Positions 27,417 to 60,233 of a stretch of DNA of 64,000 nt are shown one piece after another. This DNA is from Chrysophaeum taylorii (Eukaryota > Sar > Pelagophyceae > Pelagomonadales > Pelagomonadaceae). Below the pieces are notes generated by a model. It worked only from the letters and a program-made list of their open reading frames with translations. It did no database searches and had not been told where the DNA came from. Within the stretch, counting starts at the first letter, position 1. Every line of letters begins with the position of its first letter. The stretch is taken from the NCBI GenBank assembly GCA_029834535.1, contig JAQMWT010000059.1:170795-234794 (forward strand), in the 5' to 3' direction. A program made the translations under genes and the position numbers.

Positions 27417-28469
27417 ATGCTTGTCTCCGTGTGCGTCCCCGCGCACGACGCCGAGGAGTTCATCGGCGAGGCGCTGGCGTCGGTCGTAGCGCAGGATTAT
27501 GCGGAGGTAGAGTGCGTAGTGGTCGACGACGGGAGCGCCGACGGGACGTACGCAGCGGCGCTGGAGTGGGAGGTGTCGTTCGCGGCAGCGAAGAAACGCC
27601 TCGTTGTGGTCCGGCAGGGGACGAACCGGGGCGCGGGCGCGGCGCGGAACGCGGCGATCGCGGCGGCCTCTGGCGAGTGGATCTGCAGCCTCGACGCCGA
27701 CGACACGTGCGCGCCGCAGCGCGTGAGGCGGCTCTTGGAGGCGGCCGCGGGCCTCGAGGCACCTCGAGCGACGCTGTTGGGATCCCGCTTCGAGCGAATC
27801 CCGGCGACGGCGACGCCACGGTACGCGCAGTGGGCCAACGGACTCTCTGCCGACCGTTGTGTGCTCGAGCGCTTTCGCGAGGTCACGATCGTCCAGCCGA
27901 CGTGGTTCTTCCATCGGCGCGTTTGGGAAGTCGCGGGAAAGTACGACGAGGACGACCTCAAGTGCGATGACCTGCGTTTTTTCCATCGTCACCTCGAGAG
28001 GGGTGGGAGGTTGCACCGGGTCGACGAGGTCCTCGTGCGGTATCGGCACCGCGAGAGGGCGGGCCTCTCGTTCGTCACGCCGCGCCGCCTTCTCGTGCGA
28101 TGGCGCGTCGAGGCCTTCGCGCGAAGCGTTCTGCTGCTGGGTCATCATCGTCGTCGTTGGGGGGTCTTTTCGATTTGGGGCGCTGGCCGGGACGCGCGCG
28201 AATTCGTGAGCGCGCTCAGCGATCTCGACTCCGCCTTGGCGCGCAGGATCCGCGCGCTCCACGACGTCGACGAGCACAAGCTCCGCGCCAAGCGCTATGT
28301 CAACGGTCGCACCGGGTTCGCGGTCGACGTGCAGCACACGTCCCTCATCGCAGCGCCGTTTGTCGTGTGCGTCGCCCTCGATCGGTTTCCCGCGTTGGAG
28401 GCAGCCGTGCGGACCCTCGCGGCAGCCCGCGGTCTCGTAGAAGGCGTAGACTACTGGCATTTCAACTAG
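27417..28469 (+). CDS. B3GNTL1: B3GNTL1-like family 2 glycosyltransferase
   Basis: 350 aa. Residues 1-110 are a GT-A fold of family GT2: VSVCVPAHDAEEFIGEALAS, then ECVVVDDGSADGT (nucleotide-binding Asp pair) and WICSLDADDTCAPQR (metal-binding DxD-like SLDADD). The middle PTWFFHRRVWEVAGKYDEDD and DDLRFFHRHLERGG, and the special C-terminal domain WGVFSIWGAGRDAREFV, HDVDEHKLR and PFVVCVALD, match the animal UDP-GlcNAc:betaGal beta-1,3-N-acetylglucosaminyltransferase-like protein 1 along its length, including a final ending in a short HFN/HFS motif. Real substrate is not established for that family. No signal peptide is visible, so it may be cytosolic. A (GAA)n repeat follows the stop directly. 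Confidence 0.9.
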   Translation: MLVSVCVPAHDAEEFIGEALASVVAQDYAEVECVVVDDGSADGTYAAALEWEVSFAAAKKRLVVVRQGTNRGAGAARNAAIAAASGEWICSLDADDTCAPQRVRRLLEAAAGLEAPRATLLGSRFERIPATATPRYAQWANGLSADRCVLERFREVTIVQPTWFFHRRVWEVAGKYDEDDLKCDDLRFFHRHLERGGRLHRVDEVLVRYRHRERAGLSFVTPRRLLVRWRVEAFARSVLLLGHHRRRWGVFSIWGAGRDAREFVSALSDLDSALARRIRALHDVDEHKLRAKRYVNGRTGFAVDVQHTSLIAAPFVVCVALDRFPALEAAVRTLAAARGLVEGVDYWHFN

Positions 28470-31844: not shown

Positions 31845-32842
31845 ATGCCGCCAGCAAAGAAGGACCCGGCGATCTCGCTCACGGCGGGGTGCATCGCTGG
31901 CGCCGTCGAGTGCTGCTGCACCTGGCCGATGGAGTACATCAAGACGCAGCTGCAGACATTCCGAAAAATTCCCGGCGGCAAACCCCCGCCCTTCACCGGC
32001 ATCGGTTCGGGACTCGTCTACACCGTGCGCACGACTGGATTTTTTTCTCTCTACAACGGTCTCGCGCCGGTGCTCATCTTCTCCATCCCAAAGGCCGGCA
32101 TTCGCTTCGGCGCCAACACCTACTTCAAGAACCTCTTTCGTGATAAGGAGACCGGCAAGGTCTCCATGGGAATGGCCTTTCTTGCTGGTCTCTGCGCCGG
32201 CGTCTGCGAGGCAACGCTCGCCGTCACGCCCCAGGAGACGATCAAGACCAAGCTCATCAACCTCAACATGGGCATGGCCGACGGGGTCCCCCATATCATC
32301 AAGAACGAGGGCATCGGCGGCCTGTGAGTCGCGTCGCGCATCTGTTTACGACTTGCTTCGCGCAGCTACTCGGGTCTCGTCTCGACCTGCCTCAAACAGG
32401 GCGGCAACCAGGGCTCGCGCTTCTTCTTCATGGCGCAGTACCGCTTATTCATGGGCGGCGACGCGGAGGCGAAGCTTCCTAAACATCTCACGTACGCTCC
32501 TCGTGATTCGCTTAGACCACCCAACGCGCAGCTTCGTCGGAGGTCTTGGCGCCGGCCTCTTCTCCGTCCTTACGACCTCGCCCTTCGACGTCGTCAAGAC
32601 CAGAATGCAATCAACCGAGGCTAGCAACTACAAGAACACCCTCGACTGCTTCACGCAGATCATGACCAAAGAGGGTCCCTTTGCCTTCTTCAACGGTGCG
32701 AAATGTGCTTTGGCGGGGCAACCAACTCGTCGTCGCAGGTGCGCTTGCGCGTTCGGCCCGCGTCGTGCCTGGGCAAGGCATCATCTTCGTCTCCGTCGAC
32801 TTTTTTTATGATCTCATCGAGCGATCATTCAAACGAAAGTAG
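31845..32842 (+). CDS. SLC25A1: mitochondrial tricarboxylate (citrate) carrier
   Basis: Four exons: 31845-32323, 32366-32491, 32532-32695 and 32739-32842, giving 290 aa, the usual carrier length. Introns are 42, 40 and 43 nt. All three carrier signatures are visible: WPMEYIKTQ, TPQETIKTK and SPFDVVKTR, each the P-x-[DE]-x-x-[KR] of the inner-membrane fold. The exchange of citrate for malate across the inner mitochondrial membrane is inferred from similarity to the citrate transport proteins (AGCIAGAVECCCTWPMEYIK, GLYSGLVSTCLKQGGNQGSR, FNGALARSARVVPGQGIIFV). Without splicing the frame breaks three times. The start ATG 31845 is followed directly by the first conserved residues. Confidence 0.93.
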
Positions 32843-34614: not shown

Positions 34615-34768
34615 CACACTGCACCTCGGGTCAATATTCGCTGATCGCTCTGCAAGACTTAGTTTAGTGGCAAAGTTAGTAAAAAGATATACACACTGCA
34701 CCTCGGGTCAATATTCGCTGATCGCTCTGCAAGACTTAGTTTAGTGCCAAAGTTAGTAAAAAGATATA
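34615..34768. repeat. 77-bp tandem direct repeat (two copies)
   Basis: The block cacactgcacctcgggtcaa continuing to aaagttagtaaaaagatata occurs twice, starting at about 34615 and 34692. The copies differ by about one base in the compared part, so the duplication is recent. Confidence 0.85.
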
Positions 34769-35327
34769 CATCAAGCTCCGGTACAATATCATTTGACCGG
34801 CAGATATGGTCCGTTGATGAATGGAAATAAAGATATACATCTAGAATTCCGCGCGTCGCTTTTTGGTCAAGAAGTAGGTGAATGAGCTGCGTGGCATGAC
34901 GTAGCAATCTAAAATCAAAACCACTCAATAAGTCTTGGTTTGTTTAAATTTAGAACCTTAAATACTCAGTTTAAACATTTGCTTTCCAAGAGCCAACAAC
35001 CCTATACGAGCCCTAATCATTCATTACCCGGAAACCTACATTCGGGATTTTACAGCATTGTACACTTGTAGCCTCAGCGTCGATTGCCGGATTCTGGACT
35101 GGATACTGCATCCCCTGACCCCGAAACGGCGAGGTGTCGTGACCGGCGGTTTCGTTCCGTTCATTTATCATGTTCCGTTCATTTATCAGAAACACCCCGG
35201 CTTTATGCGGGAGAGAGGAACTTCAAGATTCTAGTCCCCTGAAGATCTTGACCCCTGTACAATTGTAGCCATTCCAAGGCCATTCATTATTACTCCTCAG
35301 ACTCTTCTTTGACAACTCCTTCGAGAT

Positions 35328-37666
35328 ATGTGGTTTCTGCTCGCAGGGCTGATCGCGCCCGAGGCGAACGCCATCGATGACAAGATTGTCGATGTCAGTT
35401 TAAGCGGCGTGGCACTCGACGTGGTCGCGCGCGACGCGGTCAGTGCAGAGCTCGCGCTGGGCGAGCTCTACGAGCGCCGGCTGATTGGATGGGCCGGCGA
35501 ACGTTCGAACTACTCCTACAACTGCATCAACGAGACATGGTGGAAAGAGACCCTCAAGCGTGACGCGTCGATCCCCGGCGAGTATGAACGCGAACGCGAT
35601 TTCATGACATCTCTCGACGACGAAGTCGACTTCATCCCTGTTGCTCACCCTCCGCCCCACCATCCTCCTCCTCACCCGTGAGTTTGCACAACTGTCTTTG
35701 TTTGACAACACGTTACAGGCACCCGCACCATCCGTTCCGCCAAGAAGAGGACGATGACTTCACCCCCGTGGCTCACCCTCCGCCTCACCATCCTCCTCCC
35801 CACCCGTGAGTTTGCACAGCTGTCGGTGTGTGGGACGATACGCCGCAGGCACCCGCACCATCCGTTCCGCCAAGAAGAGGACGATGACTTCACGCCCGCC
35901 GCTCACCCTCCGCCTCACCATCCTCCTCCCCACCCGTGAGTTTGCACAACTGTCTGCGTGGTGGACGACACGTTACAGGCACCCGCACCATCCGTTCCGC
36001 CAAGAAGAGGACGATGACTTCACGCCCGTCGCTCATCCTCCGCCGCACCATCCTCCTCCCCACCCGTGAGTTTGCACAACTGTCCGTGTGGTGGACGACA
36101 CGCTACAGGCACCCGCACCATCCGTTCCGCCAAGAAGAGGACGATGACTTCACGCCCGTCGCTCACCCTCCGCCGCACCATCCTCCTCCCCACCCGTGAG
36201 TTTGCACAACTGTCTGCGTGGTGGACGACACGTTACAGGCACCCGCACCATCCGTTCCGCCAAGAAGAGGACGATGACTTCACGCCCGTCGCTCACCCTC
36301 CGCCGCATCATCCTCCTCCCCACCCGCATCATCCGTGAGTTCCGTGCTTGTACATGGCCAACGGGTCCCGACAGGCACCCGCACCATCCGTGGCGCCAGG
36401 CTGTAGATGACGAAGATGACTTCACACCTGTCGCTCACCCGCCGCCCCACCATCCTCATCCGCACCCGCATCATCCGTGCGTTCAATCCACGTATATACT
36501 TCACTGGTCCCAACAGGCATCCGCACCATCCGTGGCGCCAGGCTGTAGACGACGAAGAAGATGATTTCACGCCTGTCGCTCACCCTCCGCCCCACCATCC
36601 TCATCCGCACCCCCACCATCCGTGAGTGCGCATAATGTGCATGCCTCACTCTGCCAAACAGGCACCCGCACCATCCATGGCGCCAGGCTGTGGACGATGA
36701 AGATGACTTCACGCCAGTTGCTCACCCGCCGCCGCACCATCCTCCGCCTCACCCGTGCGCGACCAATCATTCGCTGCCGAGCGCAGAGCACAACACCTCG
36801 CAGGCACCCGCATCATCCGTTTCGCCAAACCGAAGAGGACGACGACTTCACGCCCGTCGCTCACCCTCCGCCGCACCCGCATCCTCATCACCCGTGCGTG
36901 ACCCGTCACCGCAATGTTTTTTGATTGAACGAACCGCAGGCATCCTCACGCTTGCTCCTGCGTCTTGCGTCGTTCCTTTGTGCCTACCCTTCGTTCTGAC
37001 TGCTTTCACAGCCGCCGCATCGGAAACTGGAAGTTGAAAAAGATCTCGAGTTGGAATGGAAGGGGTGCTGCGAGCCTGATGGATACGGCGAGCTGTCGCG
37101 CAGTTCCGTCGAGAAGTTGTTTGAGACACTAGGCATCACGCAATCTTCTCCCACTGGCGCTTTCTTCGACCTGGGATCGGGCGTGGGCAAGATTGTTATG
37201 CATGCTGCCATTGCTGGCTTCGCCAAGGAGGCCGTAGGTGTTGAGTTGAATGATGGTCGCCACCGTGCTGCTCTCGCGCTCTTGGAGTCTGTCAAAGACA
37301 AAGACGCCGTCGCTGCTGAAGCCATCACGTTCATCAATGCCAACATGTTGGACGTTGATCTTTCGAAGGCGACCGTCTTGTACCTGAACCACGCGTGCTT
37401 CCCCGCGGATATGCGCGACCAGATCACGGAGAAAATCCTCGACACTGCGCACAACGTGGAGATCATTGTCGCGGCGCCCACGATCCCGCGGCTCGTGACC
37501 TCTGGGCGGTTCGCTGCTGATCGCGGCTTCCTCACTCTTGGCATGGAGATCTACACTTATGGCACCGTGAGTTGATGTTTTTGCTGTTTCGAATCTAATC
37601 TAACCGTCTTTGTGTGTATTACAGCCTCTGAAGATTTATCGCCGTATTGTCAACGCTCTTGCTTAA
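35328..37666 (+). CDS. secreted His/Pro-rich DOT1-like methyltransferase with tandem duplicated exons
   Basis: Thirteen exons, 600 aa: 35328-35677; 35719-35805; 35849-35935; 35979-36065; 36109-36195; 36239-36334; 36375-36476; 36517-36621; 36662-36754; 36804-36893; 36940-36961; 37012-37566; 37625-37666. Start MWFLLAGLIAPEANA is a signal peptide with an A-x-A site. Residues 16-100 contain two N-glycosylation sequons (NYS, NET). Exons 2-10 each encode one 29-35 residue unit, HPHHPFRQEEDDDFTPVAHP followed by PPHHPPP, so the middle of the protein has roughly nine copies rich in His, Pro and Asp/Glu, a likely metal-binding segment. Residues about 405-600 are a class I SAM-methyltransferase of DOT1 type: FFDLGSGVGKIVMHAA (motif I), AVGVELNDGRH (acidic loop), ATVLYLNHACFPADM (motif IV-like). 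DOT1 is normally a nuclear histone H3K79 enzyme; a secreted form must act on something else. The boundaries of the small exon 11 are the least sure. Confidence 0.82.
35678..36939 (+). repeat. tandem exon-intron array, nine units, 130-bp core period
   Basis: Each unit is an intron of 40-49 nt plus an exon of 87-105 nt. The intron starts at 35806, 35936, 36066 and 36196 are exactly 130 bp apart. The introns at 35936-35978 and 36196-36238 are identical over 43 nt, and the neighbouring exons differ at one or two bases. All introns are phase 2, so each exon is symmetrical and any number of units keeps the frame. Units 7-9 form a diverged subtype (HPWRQAVDDEDDF in place of HPFRQEEDDDF). Confidence 0.92.
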
Positions 37667-38489
37667 AGCGCGAGCATCTCAGGTGCTAAGCAGCTGCCAA
37701 GAGAGTCGCTGTGACTACTCTTACAACCTGGTATAAAACTTTTCAATATCATAACGCGCTCATCGTGTGTCACGTCCGTTTCCAAGTTGATATTCACGAT
37801 AAAGAGTTTCGAACAGAAAGAACGCTCCTCTATCCACGCTGTCTGCAACCTCGAATCGCTCCATCCTATAGCACAATATATGCGAAGCTCGTTAGGATTG
37901 TGGGTGATCTGAACGCAAGTTGTGAGTTGTACAACCGACTTTCTTCCCCGCGTGTTATTAGAAGTATCAATCGTCACTCTCTGCTGCTTTCTGCCTGTTT
38001 TAAGTTACCATTCTAAATTCTCTTACCCAACAATACGACGTCGTGCACGCATACAACAACCATCTCGAAAGAAAGATAGTTGCTCGAGGAATATAAGTTA
38101 GATTCGCCCCCACTGGGTGTCAATCAAAATGAGAGTTTCTGTGGTGTTCCCACTTCACGCAAGTCCTTAATGCTTCGTCGCCCGACCGAAACTCTTTCGT
38201 CGGAAGCAGGCATTTGGGTGTTTACTTTACAGTAGTAGTAAGCACGATAATAATTAATGCCCACAAAAAAGAAGCACACACACACACACAACTCCACAAA
38301 CCCACCCACATCCTTCATGCTCCCCCCCCACACACACAACCCCGCACACGGGATGCACAACCGAGCAGCTCGAGCGGCGGCAAGGGAGGTCGTAGAGGGA
38401 CGACTAGCGACAGACATGGCACAACCAACGCGAGCGAGTTATTGTTCGTTTGTTCGTCGTTACTCGTCGTTCAACAAGCGGCAACGCAA
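37667..38489. other. intergenic with CA repeat and satellite-like fragment
   Basis: About 820 bp between convergent genes. A (CA)n run at 38276-38290 is followed by cccacatccttcatgctcccc at 38303-38325, a fragment of the satellite unit found at 41.7 and 59.8-60.1 kb. No gene recognised. Confidence 0.55.
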
Positions 38490-41476: not shown

Positions 41477-41939
41477 GGTGATGATTCTGCTCGACGCTCT
41501 CACATCATAACATATTGGCTGGTTAGTGTCTACCACTTTGCCTTTGGGGGGACATCCATCCCATCCTTCGCCGCACATACGTCCGGCGGCAAGCATGCGT
41601 ACGACCTACGGGCGGGGCCCTTGGTCCGCTCTTCGCCTGCCCCACGCCTCGGCGATGACCCCGACTAGGTCCCGCGTACTTATCTCCGCCCGTCAGGCAC
41701 ATCCCTCCTACCCCACATACCCACCCACATCCTTCATGCCCCCACACCCCCCTCTTAGCATTCGACATTTAAAGACATCCATCCCATCCGCCATCCCACA
41801 TCCCACATCCGTACGGCTCGCCGGCTCCGAGCCGGCCATCTATCCATCCATCTCGACTCCGTGCATCCCCGGCGGCGGCGGCGGCTCGAGTGTCGGACGA
41901 AGGGGCGAGCGAATGAAAGAAAGAAAGGTCGTCGTCGTG
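41477..41939. other. intergenic, mobile-element-derived repeats
   Basis: About 460 bp between the U2SURP start and the TLDc gene end. Most of it is the dispersed repeat described at 41566-41706 and a satellite-like unit near 41728-41785, followed by CATCC-type simple repeats. Confidence 0.6.
41566..41706 (+). repeat. dispersed repeat shared with the Helitron-associated region, copy 1
   Basis: About 140 bp beginning cgcacatacgtccggcggc and continuing through tgcgtacgacctacgggcgg to cgcccgtcaggcacatccct. It recurs at 60234-60362 with only a few differences. Both copies are followed by the ctcttagcattcgacattta satellite motif, so this is probably a fragment of the same element family. Confidence 0.8.
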
Positions 41940-43606: not shown

Positions 43607-44870
43607 ATGCCCCTGCGCCCGCGTATGGTCGGCAGTCGGTCTCATATGCAACGCAGACGACGAGGGGGCATGTCTCAGTCGCGCTTCGTCATCATAATCG
43701 TTGGCTTGGTATTATTGCTTGCGCTCGCCTGTAGCCTCTTCTCCTTGCGAAGCGTCGTCGGCGTCGTCTTCCCGAGCCGCCACACGGCCGTCAGCGTCGT
43801 CTTTGAGTCCTCGAGCTCGGTCGCCGGCAACTTTCGCTCGTCGGACGAAATCAAGCTGCCGTCGGGCTCCTCGAGGCTTCGCGCTTCCTCCGGTAGTACT
43901 GTAGTGGTCGTGTCGTCGTCGTCCGAGAGCGTCGACACCGCGTAGGCTCCTCCTCCTCCTCCTCCTCCTCCTCCAACACGGTGGTCATCATGTACGACAC
44001 GCGACCGCCGACCCCGCGCGACTCGCTCAACAAGGACGGAGAGAACGAGTACTGGTCCCACGCTGCCTACCTCAACTGGCTGTTCGCGTGCAACCGCGGC
44101 TACGACTTCCGATACTACCTAGAGGTCAACATCGAGCAGAAGGCCGAAAAGCCGCGGGGATTTCTGCAGGAGGGCAACAGCGGCATCTTCAAGTCGCAGC
44201 TCACGTGCTACCTCAACCGCAATATCGGGCGTTCGACGCCCTGGTGCAAGCTAGGCGCGGTCGCGGACGCGCTCGCCTCGGGCTACGAGTGGGTTCTCAT
44301 CCTCGACTCGGACGCATACTTCCGAAGCTCCGGCGCACAAGCGACCAAAAGCGTCGATGACCTCATCAAGGACTACCGCGGCGCCTACTGGGAAACGGGT
44401 AGCCCCGATCTCTGGCTCGCCTCGAACAGTCCTTGGGGCGAGACTCGCGGCAACACCGGCATGCAGATCTGGCACAACACCGAGGCCGCTTGGAAGGTCC
44501 TCCGCCTCTGGTGGCAGACCGACGCCAAGGCAACGCAGCACGCCTACGAGCAGCACGGCTTCGTCGAGCTCATGCACAAACACCACGAGCTTCGCGGAAA
44601 CTTTGGCGTCTTGTCCAAGCTTCGCTGGATGGAGCCCGACGATTGGGAGAAGCTCCCCGCCGTCCACATCGCCTCCTTCCAGAAGGCCGTCCGCATCAAC
44701 ATGATGATGGACCAAGTCGAACAAGAGGAGCGACACGTACGGTGTAGTAGTTTTTTTTTGTGAGCGAGTGATTTTTCGAGCAGGGCAGGGGCCGAAAATG
44801 CAAGACGCTCGTCGTGCGCCGAATCAACGCGACCGCCATCGCCGAGGTCAGCCTCTTCGTCTCGCCTTAG
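43607..44870 (+). CDS. type II membrane glycosyltransferase (GT34-like)
   Basis: Three exons, 43607-43892, 43946-44736 and 44784-44870, give 387 aa. The first intron (53 nt, donor GTAGTA, acceptor CGTAG) removes two stop codons; the second is 47 nt and replaces a spurious tail with GRGRKCKTLVVRRINATAIA. Residues 28-45 are a signal anchor (FVIIIVGLVLLLALACSLF) after RRRR. The lumenal domain has WCKLGAVADALASGYEWVLI then LDSDAYF (the DxD metal site), DLWLASNSPWGETRGNTGMQ and IWHNTEAAWKVLRLWW; this pattern resembles galactosyl/xylosyl-transferases of the GMA12/MNN10 group (GT34), acceptor unknown. The start could also be one of the later ATGs (43625, 43646, 43670). It shares a 110-bp divergent promoter with the TLDc gene. 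Confidence 0.8.
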
Positions 44871-59724: not shown

Positions 59725-59800
59725 TGTCTGCCTCGCATGCCTACCTGATCCTTACCCTGAATCGGGGGACAAATGCTCCCCGCAGGGCCGCACACACCCC

Positions 59801-60090
59801 CCTCTTAGCAGTCGACATTTGAAGACAAAGAGGTCCAACCACATCCTTCATGCTCCCCACACACACCCCCCTCTTAGCAGTCGACATTTAAAGACAGAGA
59901 GGTCCTTCATGCTCCCCACACACACCCCCCTCATAGCAGTCGACATTTAAAGACAAAGAGGTCCAACCACATCCTTCATGCTCCCCACGCACACCCCCCT
60001 CTCAGCAGTCGACATTTAAAGACAAAGAGGTCCTTCGTGCTACCTACACACACCCCCCTCTTAGCAGTCGACACTTTAAGACAAAGCGGC
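59801..60090. repeat. satellite array with alternating 69/59-bp units
   Basis: Five copies of a unit containing ctcttagcagtcgacattta and cccacacacacccccc. Copy starts are at 59802, 59871, 59930, 59999 and 60058, so the spacing alternates 69, 59, 69, 59; the 10-bp difference is the presence or absence of aaccacatcc. The true repeat is therefore a 128-bp higher-order unit. A further copy at 60362 and fragments at 38303 and 41728 belong to the same family. Confidence 0.9.
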
Positions 60091-60233
60091 CCAAACTCGC
60101 CGCATCTACCGTGAGTGGGGGATCGCCAACGCACTAGGCCGGGCTCGCTTTGCCCTCACTGCCCTCACCCATGTCGCCGCCTCGGGGAACCTCACCCAGG
60201 CCGCCCGATCCCAGCAGGACGTCACCCTTCGTC

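Follow-up and report, generated by a model that had tools for sequence, protein, structure and literature searches.

A nine-unit exon-intron array, probably grown by tandem duplication, in a DOT1-family methyltransferase gene of Chrysophaeum taylorii

The 64-kb stretch of the Chrysophaeum taylorii genome analysed here (contig JAQMWT010000059.1, positions 170,795 to 234,794; hereafter, the window) is part of a 70.8-Mb assembly of 697 contigs, to which all whole-genome searches refer. On its + strand lies a gene predicted to encode a DOT1-family methyltransferase, in which nine exons of 87-105 bp alternate with ten introns of 40-49 nucleotides (nt). The array region (35678-36939) was read directly, and all coordinates are window positions. 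Both the gene model and its splicing are deduced here from genomic sequence, and the copies were tested against each other for coding signal.

By its translation, exon 1 (35328-35677) starts with the ATG and a signal-peptide-like sequence (MWFLLAGLIAPEANA), continues into an N-terminal domain with two N-x-S/T sequons, and ends with a first HPPPHHPPPHP half-unit (DDEVDFIPVAHPPPHHPPPHP) ahead of intron 1; signal peptide and sequons were read by eye from the sequence. The unit that follows has the pattern HPHHP[FW]RQ, then an acidic stretch, then DFTPVAHPPPHHPPPHP. Intron 1 (35678-35718, 41 nt, phase 2) belongs to the family of introns 2-5. Units 1-3 are F-type exons of 87 bp each (35719-35805, 35849-35935, and 35979-36065), separated by introns 2 and 3 (35806-35848 and 35936-35978, 43 nt each), and the 87-bp exon of unit 4 (36109-36195) is flanked by introns 4 and 5 (36066-36108 and 36196-36238, also 43 nt each). 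The exon of unit 5 (36239-36334, 96 bp) has a 3' end resembling the W-type, to which units 6-8 belong (HPHHPWRQAVDDEDDF; 36375-36476, 102 bp; 36517-36621, 105 bp; 36662-36754, 93 bp). Introns 6, 7, and 8 (36335-36374, 36477-36516, and 36622-36661) measure 40 nt each. Intron 9 (36755-36803, 49 nt) is followed by the F-type exon of unit 9 (36804-36893, 90 bp; FRQTEEDDDF) and by intron 10 (36894-36939, 46 nt, phase 2). The segment 36940-37011 comprises a short exon starting with HPH and a phase-0 intron ending with CAG at 37011, for which only candidate donors can be named. The methyltransferase exon (PF08123; 37012-37566), assigned by profile match and predicted model, is followed by the last intron (37567-37624, 58 nt, GTGAGT...ACAG) and by the last exon (37625-37666), which ends with PLKIYRRIVNALA and the stop codon TAA.

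The array is highly regular. All ten introns are in phase 2 and all nine exons have a length that is a multiple of three; because of these two properties, units can be gained or lost without breaking the frame. The donor GTG[AC]G and the acceptor CAG were found in 10/10 array introns, the interiors of which drift. Introns 3 and 5 do not differ at any of their 43 nt, and copies in the first block are spaced by 130, 130, 130, and 130 bp (period 130, 5.4 copies, 93% matches, and score 1188 in Tandem Repeats Finder). Intron length is 1 modulo 3 in nine of the ten introns, in four length classes (40, 43, 46, and 49 nt), possibly by chance or shared descent. The preliminary description of this DNA had already reported the alternation of short introns and exons, the 130-bp spacing of four successive units, the pair of identical introns, the common phase that makes unit gain or loss safe for the frame, the presence of an intron within each repeat unit, and the retention of spliceable signals copy by copy. 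All of this was borne out: introns and exons stand where it had placed them, and the aligned exon-intron copies share the intron's place and phase.

Differences among the copies follow the codon structure of the spliced frame. Across the nine exons, variable columns were found at 24/35 third, 6/35 second, and 1/35 first codon positions. Comparison of third (24/35) with first plus second positions (7/70) yielded a Fisher p = 1.3e-9, which serves as an indication and not as an exact probability since the copies share kinship and are not independent. Among units 1-5 alone, five variable columns are third-position and one is second-position. The proportion of nonsynonymous differences (pN, 0-0.10) was lower than that of synonymous differences (pS, 0.05-0.63) in all 36 unit pairs, and introns differ between units by 0-0.66, the range of silent sites. 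It is because of this codon-position bias and of pN < pS that the array is read as spliced coding sequence, and the substitutions indicate that the copies evolve as such under purifying selection. Once the exons are joined, the spliced frame is free of stops and four of the other frames contain 2, 9, 10, and 20 stops. Retention of any single intron shifts the frame (10/10), and in 7/10 cases the retained reading opens with proline and a stop. The array introns are presumably spliced constitutively in the cell. Interpretation of the repeat as non-coding DNA was considered and rejected on the codon-position bias.

Downstream of the array, the frame of the methyltransferase requires a further phase-0 intron with its acceptor at 37009-37011. 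The donor choices that keep the frame are 36950 (GC), 36962 (GTCTTG), 36980 (GTGCCT), or 36898 (GTGACC), the last of which would give a 114-nt intron in place of intron 10. Two simpler models, a direct splice 36894-37011 and an array without a second intron before 37012, were discarded, as both leave the methyltransferase out of frame. The related proteins P0004 and P0005, from the Q just ahead of PWRS, suggest the same acceptor place, and an assembly error at the 36894-37011 junction is possible.

The predicted protein thus consists, in order, of a signal-peptide-like N-terminal part, the His/Pro/acid-rich units, and the methyltransferase. The nine units amount to 278 residues, including 72 His, 90 Pro, and 46 Asp/Glu. 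In a Pfam search of the spliced protein at expectation values (E) up to 0.1, only DOT1 was found (PF08123, 48.5 bits against a curated cut-off of 23, E 1e-12), and no leucine-rich repeat (LRR). The predicted model of the methyltransferase exon has a mean predicted local distance difference test score of 80.9 (65-68 in the other four models), with its first 19 residues below 50. Its best Foldseek match in the PDB is bacterial DOT1L (9ne1, E 1.2e-9), followed by yeast Dot1p and human DOT1L, and identity to the DOT1 structures listed is about 18-27%. Profile and predicted fold agree in placing the product in the DOT1 family (PF08123; PDB 9ne1, 1u2z), whose fold it is predicted to carry, whereas the signal-peptide-like start and the His/Pro linker set it apart from that family. 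The linker is probably disordered and, going by its composition, might be a flexible pH- or metal-responsive tether, a proposal made tentatively and at somewhat less than even odds. The N-terminal sequence would direct the protein into the secretory pathway, and because of this signal-peptide-like start a nuclear (histone) substrate such as H3 K79 is doubtful. The gene would then represent a DOT1-type methyltransferase in a compartment where a histone substrate is unexpected.

Protein searches for relatives (E <= 0.001) returned 1, 3, and 9 matches, corresponding to 10 different proteins altogether; the first of these searches covered the 8000 candidates with most words in common, and its result is to be read as at least one match. 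P0001 (334 residues) has the domain order of the array gene, that of exon 1 included, with about one unit. P0002 (300 residues) is a single protein that also runs from the N-terminal part to the methyltransferase, with two units in an uninterrupted reading frame; as its opening residues are unlike those of the array gene, its start may lie inside an intron. The start of P0003 appears to be the read-through of an intron ending AG|G just before HPHHPHHKE. P0004, P0005, and P0006 are 64-72% identical over the methyltransferase and, where the array gene has its last intron (37567), each continues with V (GTG), presumably by reading into the GTG donor of that same intron. The remoter proteins P0007-P0010 share the DOT1 domain. 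Among them, P0007 (473 residues) has, by eye, a signal-peptide-like start and two tandem DOT1 domains, and DOT1 proteins of secretory appearance may thus occur more widely. No relatives of P0001 and P0004 were found in IMG/VR, nor of P0002 in GTDB genomes, in searches from which records near the window's own genome may be omitted. Within the own genome, a search at DNA level for unit 3 and the adjoining intron 4, with very common words skipped, gave ten matches, all within the array. A protein search for the unit placed 10/11 matches at the array locus, the eleventh being a weak one (E 0.17) to a Pro/Ser-rich repeat. For the methyltransferase, 16 further matches with E <= 1 turned up elsewhere in the genome; none exceeds 46% identity, and eight have an E below 1e-4.

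The history of the array can be followed in the similarity between its copies. Compared with shuffles, intron interiors are related among introns 1-5 (z 7.0-12.3), and those of introns 6 and 7 are related to each other (z 3.9); all other intron pairs, including those with four control introns of other genes, gave z <= 2.2. When each of units 1-4 is taken together with the intron after it, 118-128 of 130 bases match between copies, with units 2 and 4 the closest pair (128/130). Silent divergence is about 5-21% among units 1-5 and 5-11% among units 2-5; it reaches 0.30-0.63 for the older units. Young units therefore adjoin old ones in the same gene, and part of the duplication is probably recent. 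Units 1-5 are F-type, units 6-8 W-type, and unit 9 F-type again. Because exon 5 joins an F-type start to a W-like end, exchange within exons is suggested. The existence of relatives with about one or two units makes growth by tandem duplication the probable origin of the array, and successive stages of such growth are visible in the half-unit before intron 1, in these relatives, and in the nine-unit array itself.

Taken together, these data support, with a probability of roughly 85%, a real protein-coding array of nine exon-intron units grown by tandem duplication. The founder segment would have spanned a minimal phase-2 intron together with the adjoining ends of its two flanking exons; it would have been duplicated in tandem and then multiplied by unequal exchange. 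Each unit would be frame-neutral in both DNA and RNA, and its addition or loss would be tolerated. Splicing would join the units into a 278-residue linker between the signal-peptide-bearing domain and the DOT1-type S-adenosylmethionine methyltransferase. The gene would thus illustrate, in compact form, how a protein region can lengthen one copy at a time with the frame kept when the segment being duplicated contains an intron. Several observations weigh against this interpretation. Introns 8, 9, and 10 resemble the other array introns in place and phase only, and separate origins of these three are possible. The two units of P0002 are apparently not separated by an intron. One opposite-strand frame is also stop-free over the nine exons, all four frame-keeping models of the junction depend on a weak donor, and the splicing is deduced from the genome and not from transcripts. 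As for the linker, its role is proposed from composition only.

A neighbouring gene allowed calibration of intron size. About 2.5 kb upstream of the array gene, a mitochondrial-carrier gene (31845-32842) has three introns. When the entire window was scanned for introns with a rough codon-score method, four candidates emerged, of which the two lying in the carrier gene were used; outside this calibration, 44737-44783 was viewed and not used, and 28367-28449 was left aside. Carrier intron 1 (32324-32365, 42 nt, donor GTGAG, acceptor CAG) was taken as found by the scan. For intron 2 (32492-32531, 40 nt, donor GTACG, acceptor CAG), the donor of the scan was combined with a nearer acceptor picked by following the carrier protein sequence, which also yielded intron 3 (32696-32738, 43 nt, donor GTGCG, acceptor CAG). 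The spliced carrier has 290 residues and three repeats and scores 186.7 bits against Mito_carr, whereas the unspliced pieces reach 92.0 bits (two repeats, in the first exon) and 59.1 bits (one repeat, in another frame). Retention of carrier intron 1 leads to an immediate stop, like that of most array introns. Thus, as the three carrier introns measure 42, 40, and 43 nt and carry similar signals, introns of 40-49 nt with such signals are not peculiar to the array.

Among the alternatives, the one that survives best is the mechanism put forward in the preliminary description, in which unit number varies between strains and exons are skipped, so that many protein lengths arise from one gene. Frame-neutral units would permit it, and the near-identity of the youngest ones (units 2 and 4, and the low silent divergence of units 2-5) points to recent duplication. 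Nevertheless, the array is known from one locus in one assembly of genomic DNA, and the silent divergence of the older units implies that much of it is old. According to the available portion of PMC6142364, exon skipping accompanies exon definition, with long introns on either side, and short introns are associated with intron definition, which favours retention over skipping; the same text names exceptions, in which skipping is linked to short introns, in Ectocarpus, Klebsormidium, and Bigelowiella. The 40-49-nt introns thus argue against frequent skipping, as a tendency only, and such length variation is considered unlikely here. Still less probable, and frankly speculative, is a scheme in which a secreted DOT1 enzyme carries a metal/pH-responsive linker whose length is tuned through gain and loss of units between cells and through in-frame exon choice in RNA. 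If true, linker length would be set at the DNA and RNA level at once.

A second alternative is that an existing coding repeat received introns by repeated, introner-like insertion, the intron of each unit having been gained separately. Introners do occur in pelagophyte algae, with about 210 bp in Pelagomonas (available text of PMC9481584), introns 8-10 show no recognisable kinship to the others, and the two units of P0002 share an uninterrupted reading frame. However, because introns 1-5 and 6-7 are related, and related together with their exons, this is only a minor and very unlikely rival. All ten introns, moreover, occupy the same place and phase, their size is also that of the carrier introns, and the protein sequence of P0003 suggests read-through of an intron at the corresponding position ahead of HPHHP. 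As to introners, the DNA matches of unit 3 plus intron 4 were confined to the array in the search described above, which also omitted introns 6-10. The possibility that the number of 130-bp units is wrong, by collapse or duplication in the assembly, is raised by the close agreement of units 1-4 and their introns (118-128/130 bases), but the units are distinguishable by their own substitutions and units 6-9 have diverged clearly from units 1-5, which leaves it with a slight chance. Finally, an unspliced gene stopping at 35681 after HPPPHHPPPHP, its remainder being either a degenerating copy or a tandem repeat without coding function, has in its favour the in-frame TGA that opens intron 1 (CCG TGA) and an open reading frame (35328-35681) complete by itself, but is already strongly disfavoured, to the point of being barely credible, by the codon-position bias and pN < pS over nine units in the spliced frame, by the methyltransferase exon, which is open throughout, and by the union of N-terminal part and methyltransferase in P0001 and P0002.

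The preliminary description had also contrasted the array with most coding minisatellites, each copy here being open to skipping with the frame intact. The build is not unique, and precedents were found in the LRR genes of Tetrahymena (PMC6564038), the BG genes of chicken (PMC4046983), and spider silk genes (PMC3522626), compared here through the available portions of these reports. In Tetrahymena, exons of exactly 90 bp number tens of thousands and are spread over thousands of LRR genes; more than 98% of the introns before these exons are in phase 2, introns measure about 50 bp in the oldest genes, and unequal crossing over has been proposed (PMC6564038). The present array shares with them a tandem series of short exons, phase-2 introns (10/10 here), and a single-celled eukaryotic host, and contains, as in the Tetrahymena type of symmetric exons, a run of consecutive homologous exons, nine here, with the same phase at both ends. 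In contrast to the Tetrahymena genes, it occupies one locus, its exons vary between 87 and 105 bp, and it encodes a His/Pro-rich, probably disordered linker with no LRR; the Tetrahymena arrays are supported by RNA-Seq, whereas this one is read from genomic DNA. The array works like those of Tetrahymena, outside that LRR gene family. In chicken BG genes, 13-36 exons of 21 or 24 nt encode the cytoplasmic tail (PMC4046983). Here too, a protein segment is built from many small in-frame exons, the number of which varies between BG genes; the BG exons differ in encoding heptads of a presumed coiled coil in a vertebrate multigene family. In the silk genes Flag and MaSp2, an intron once present can spread through the gene (PMC3522626), and in the present array an intron would likewise have been propagated along the repeats, although silk introns are 496-2620 bp long and the product is a structural protein, compared with 40-49 nt and an enzyme here. 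The tandem exon-intron build was therefore already known; what is new, as far as our searches show and within the portions of the literature covered, is its host protein and the near-minimal size of its introns. Next to the ciliate and animal cases, the array would be what looks like an independent one from outside these groups.

By composition, and in its tentatively proposed pH- or metal-responsive role, the linker may be likened to the His/Pro-rich region of histidine-rich glycoprotein, a secreted plasma protein in which that region is described as Zn-binding in the source text available. We know of no methyltransferase in His/Pro-rich proteins of this type.

Elsewhere in the window, no second exon-intron array like that of the methyltransferase gene appeared in the Tandem Repeats Finder table (periods up to 500), and scans of the window with Rfam (gathering threshold) and for transfer RNA genes were empty. 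Two head-to-tail copies of a 77-bp sequence (98% matches) lie at 34615-34770, some 560 bp ahead of the start codon of the array gene. The motif ACATCCTTCATGCTCCCC was found at 38308-38325, 41727-41744, 59841-59858, 59900-59917, and 59969-59986, that is, five matches with at most two mismatches versus none in 100 shuffles; three of them are inside a tandem repeat (59791-60094). Lastly, on another contig of the assembly, at locus L029 (G000:C546:188060-191251), a frame is open over the whole 3.2 kb and contains Pro/Ser-rich repeats of the PSSxPSxxPS type.
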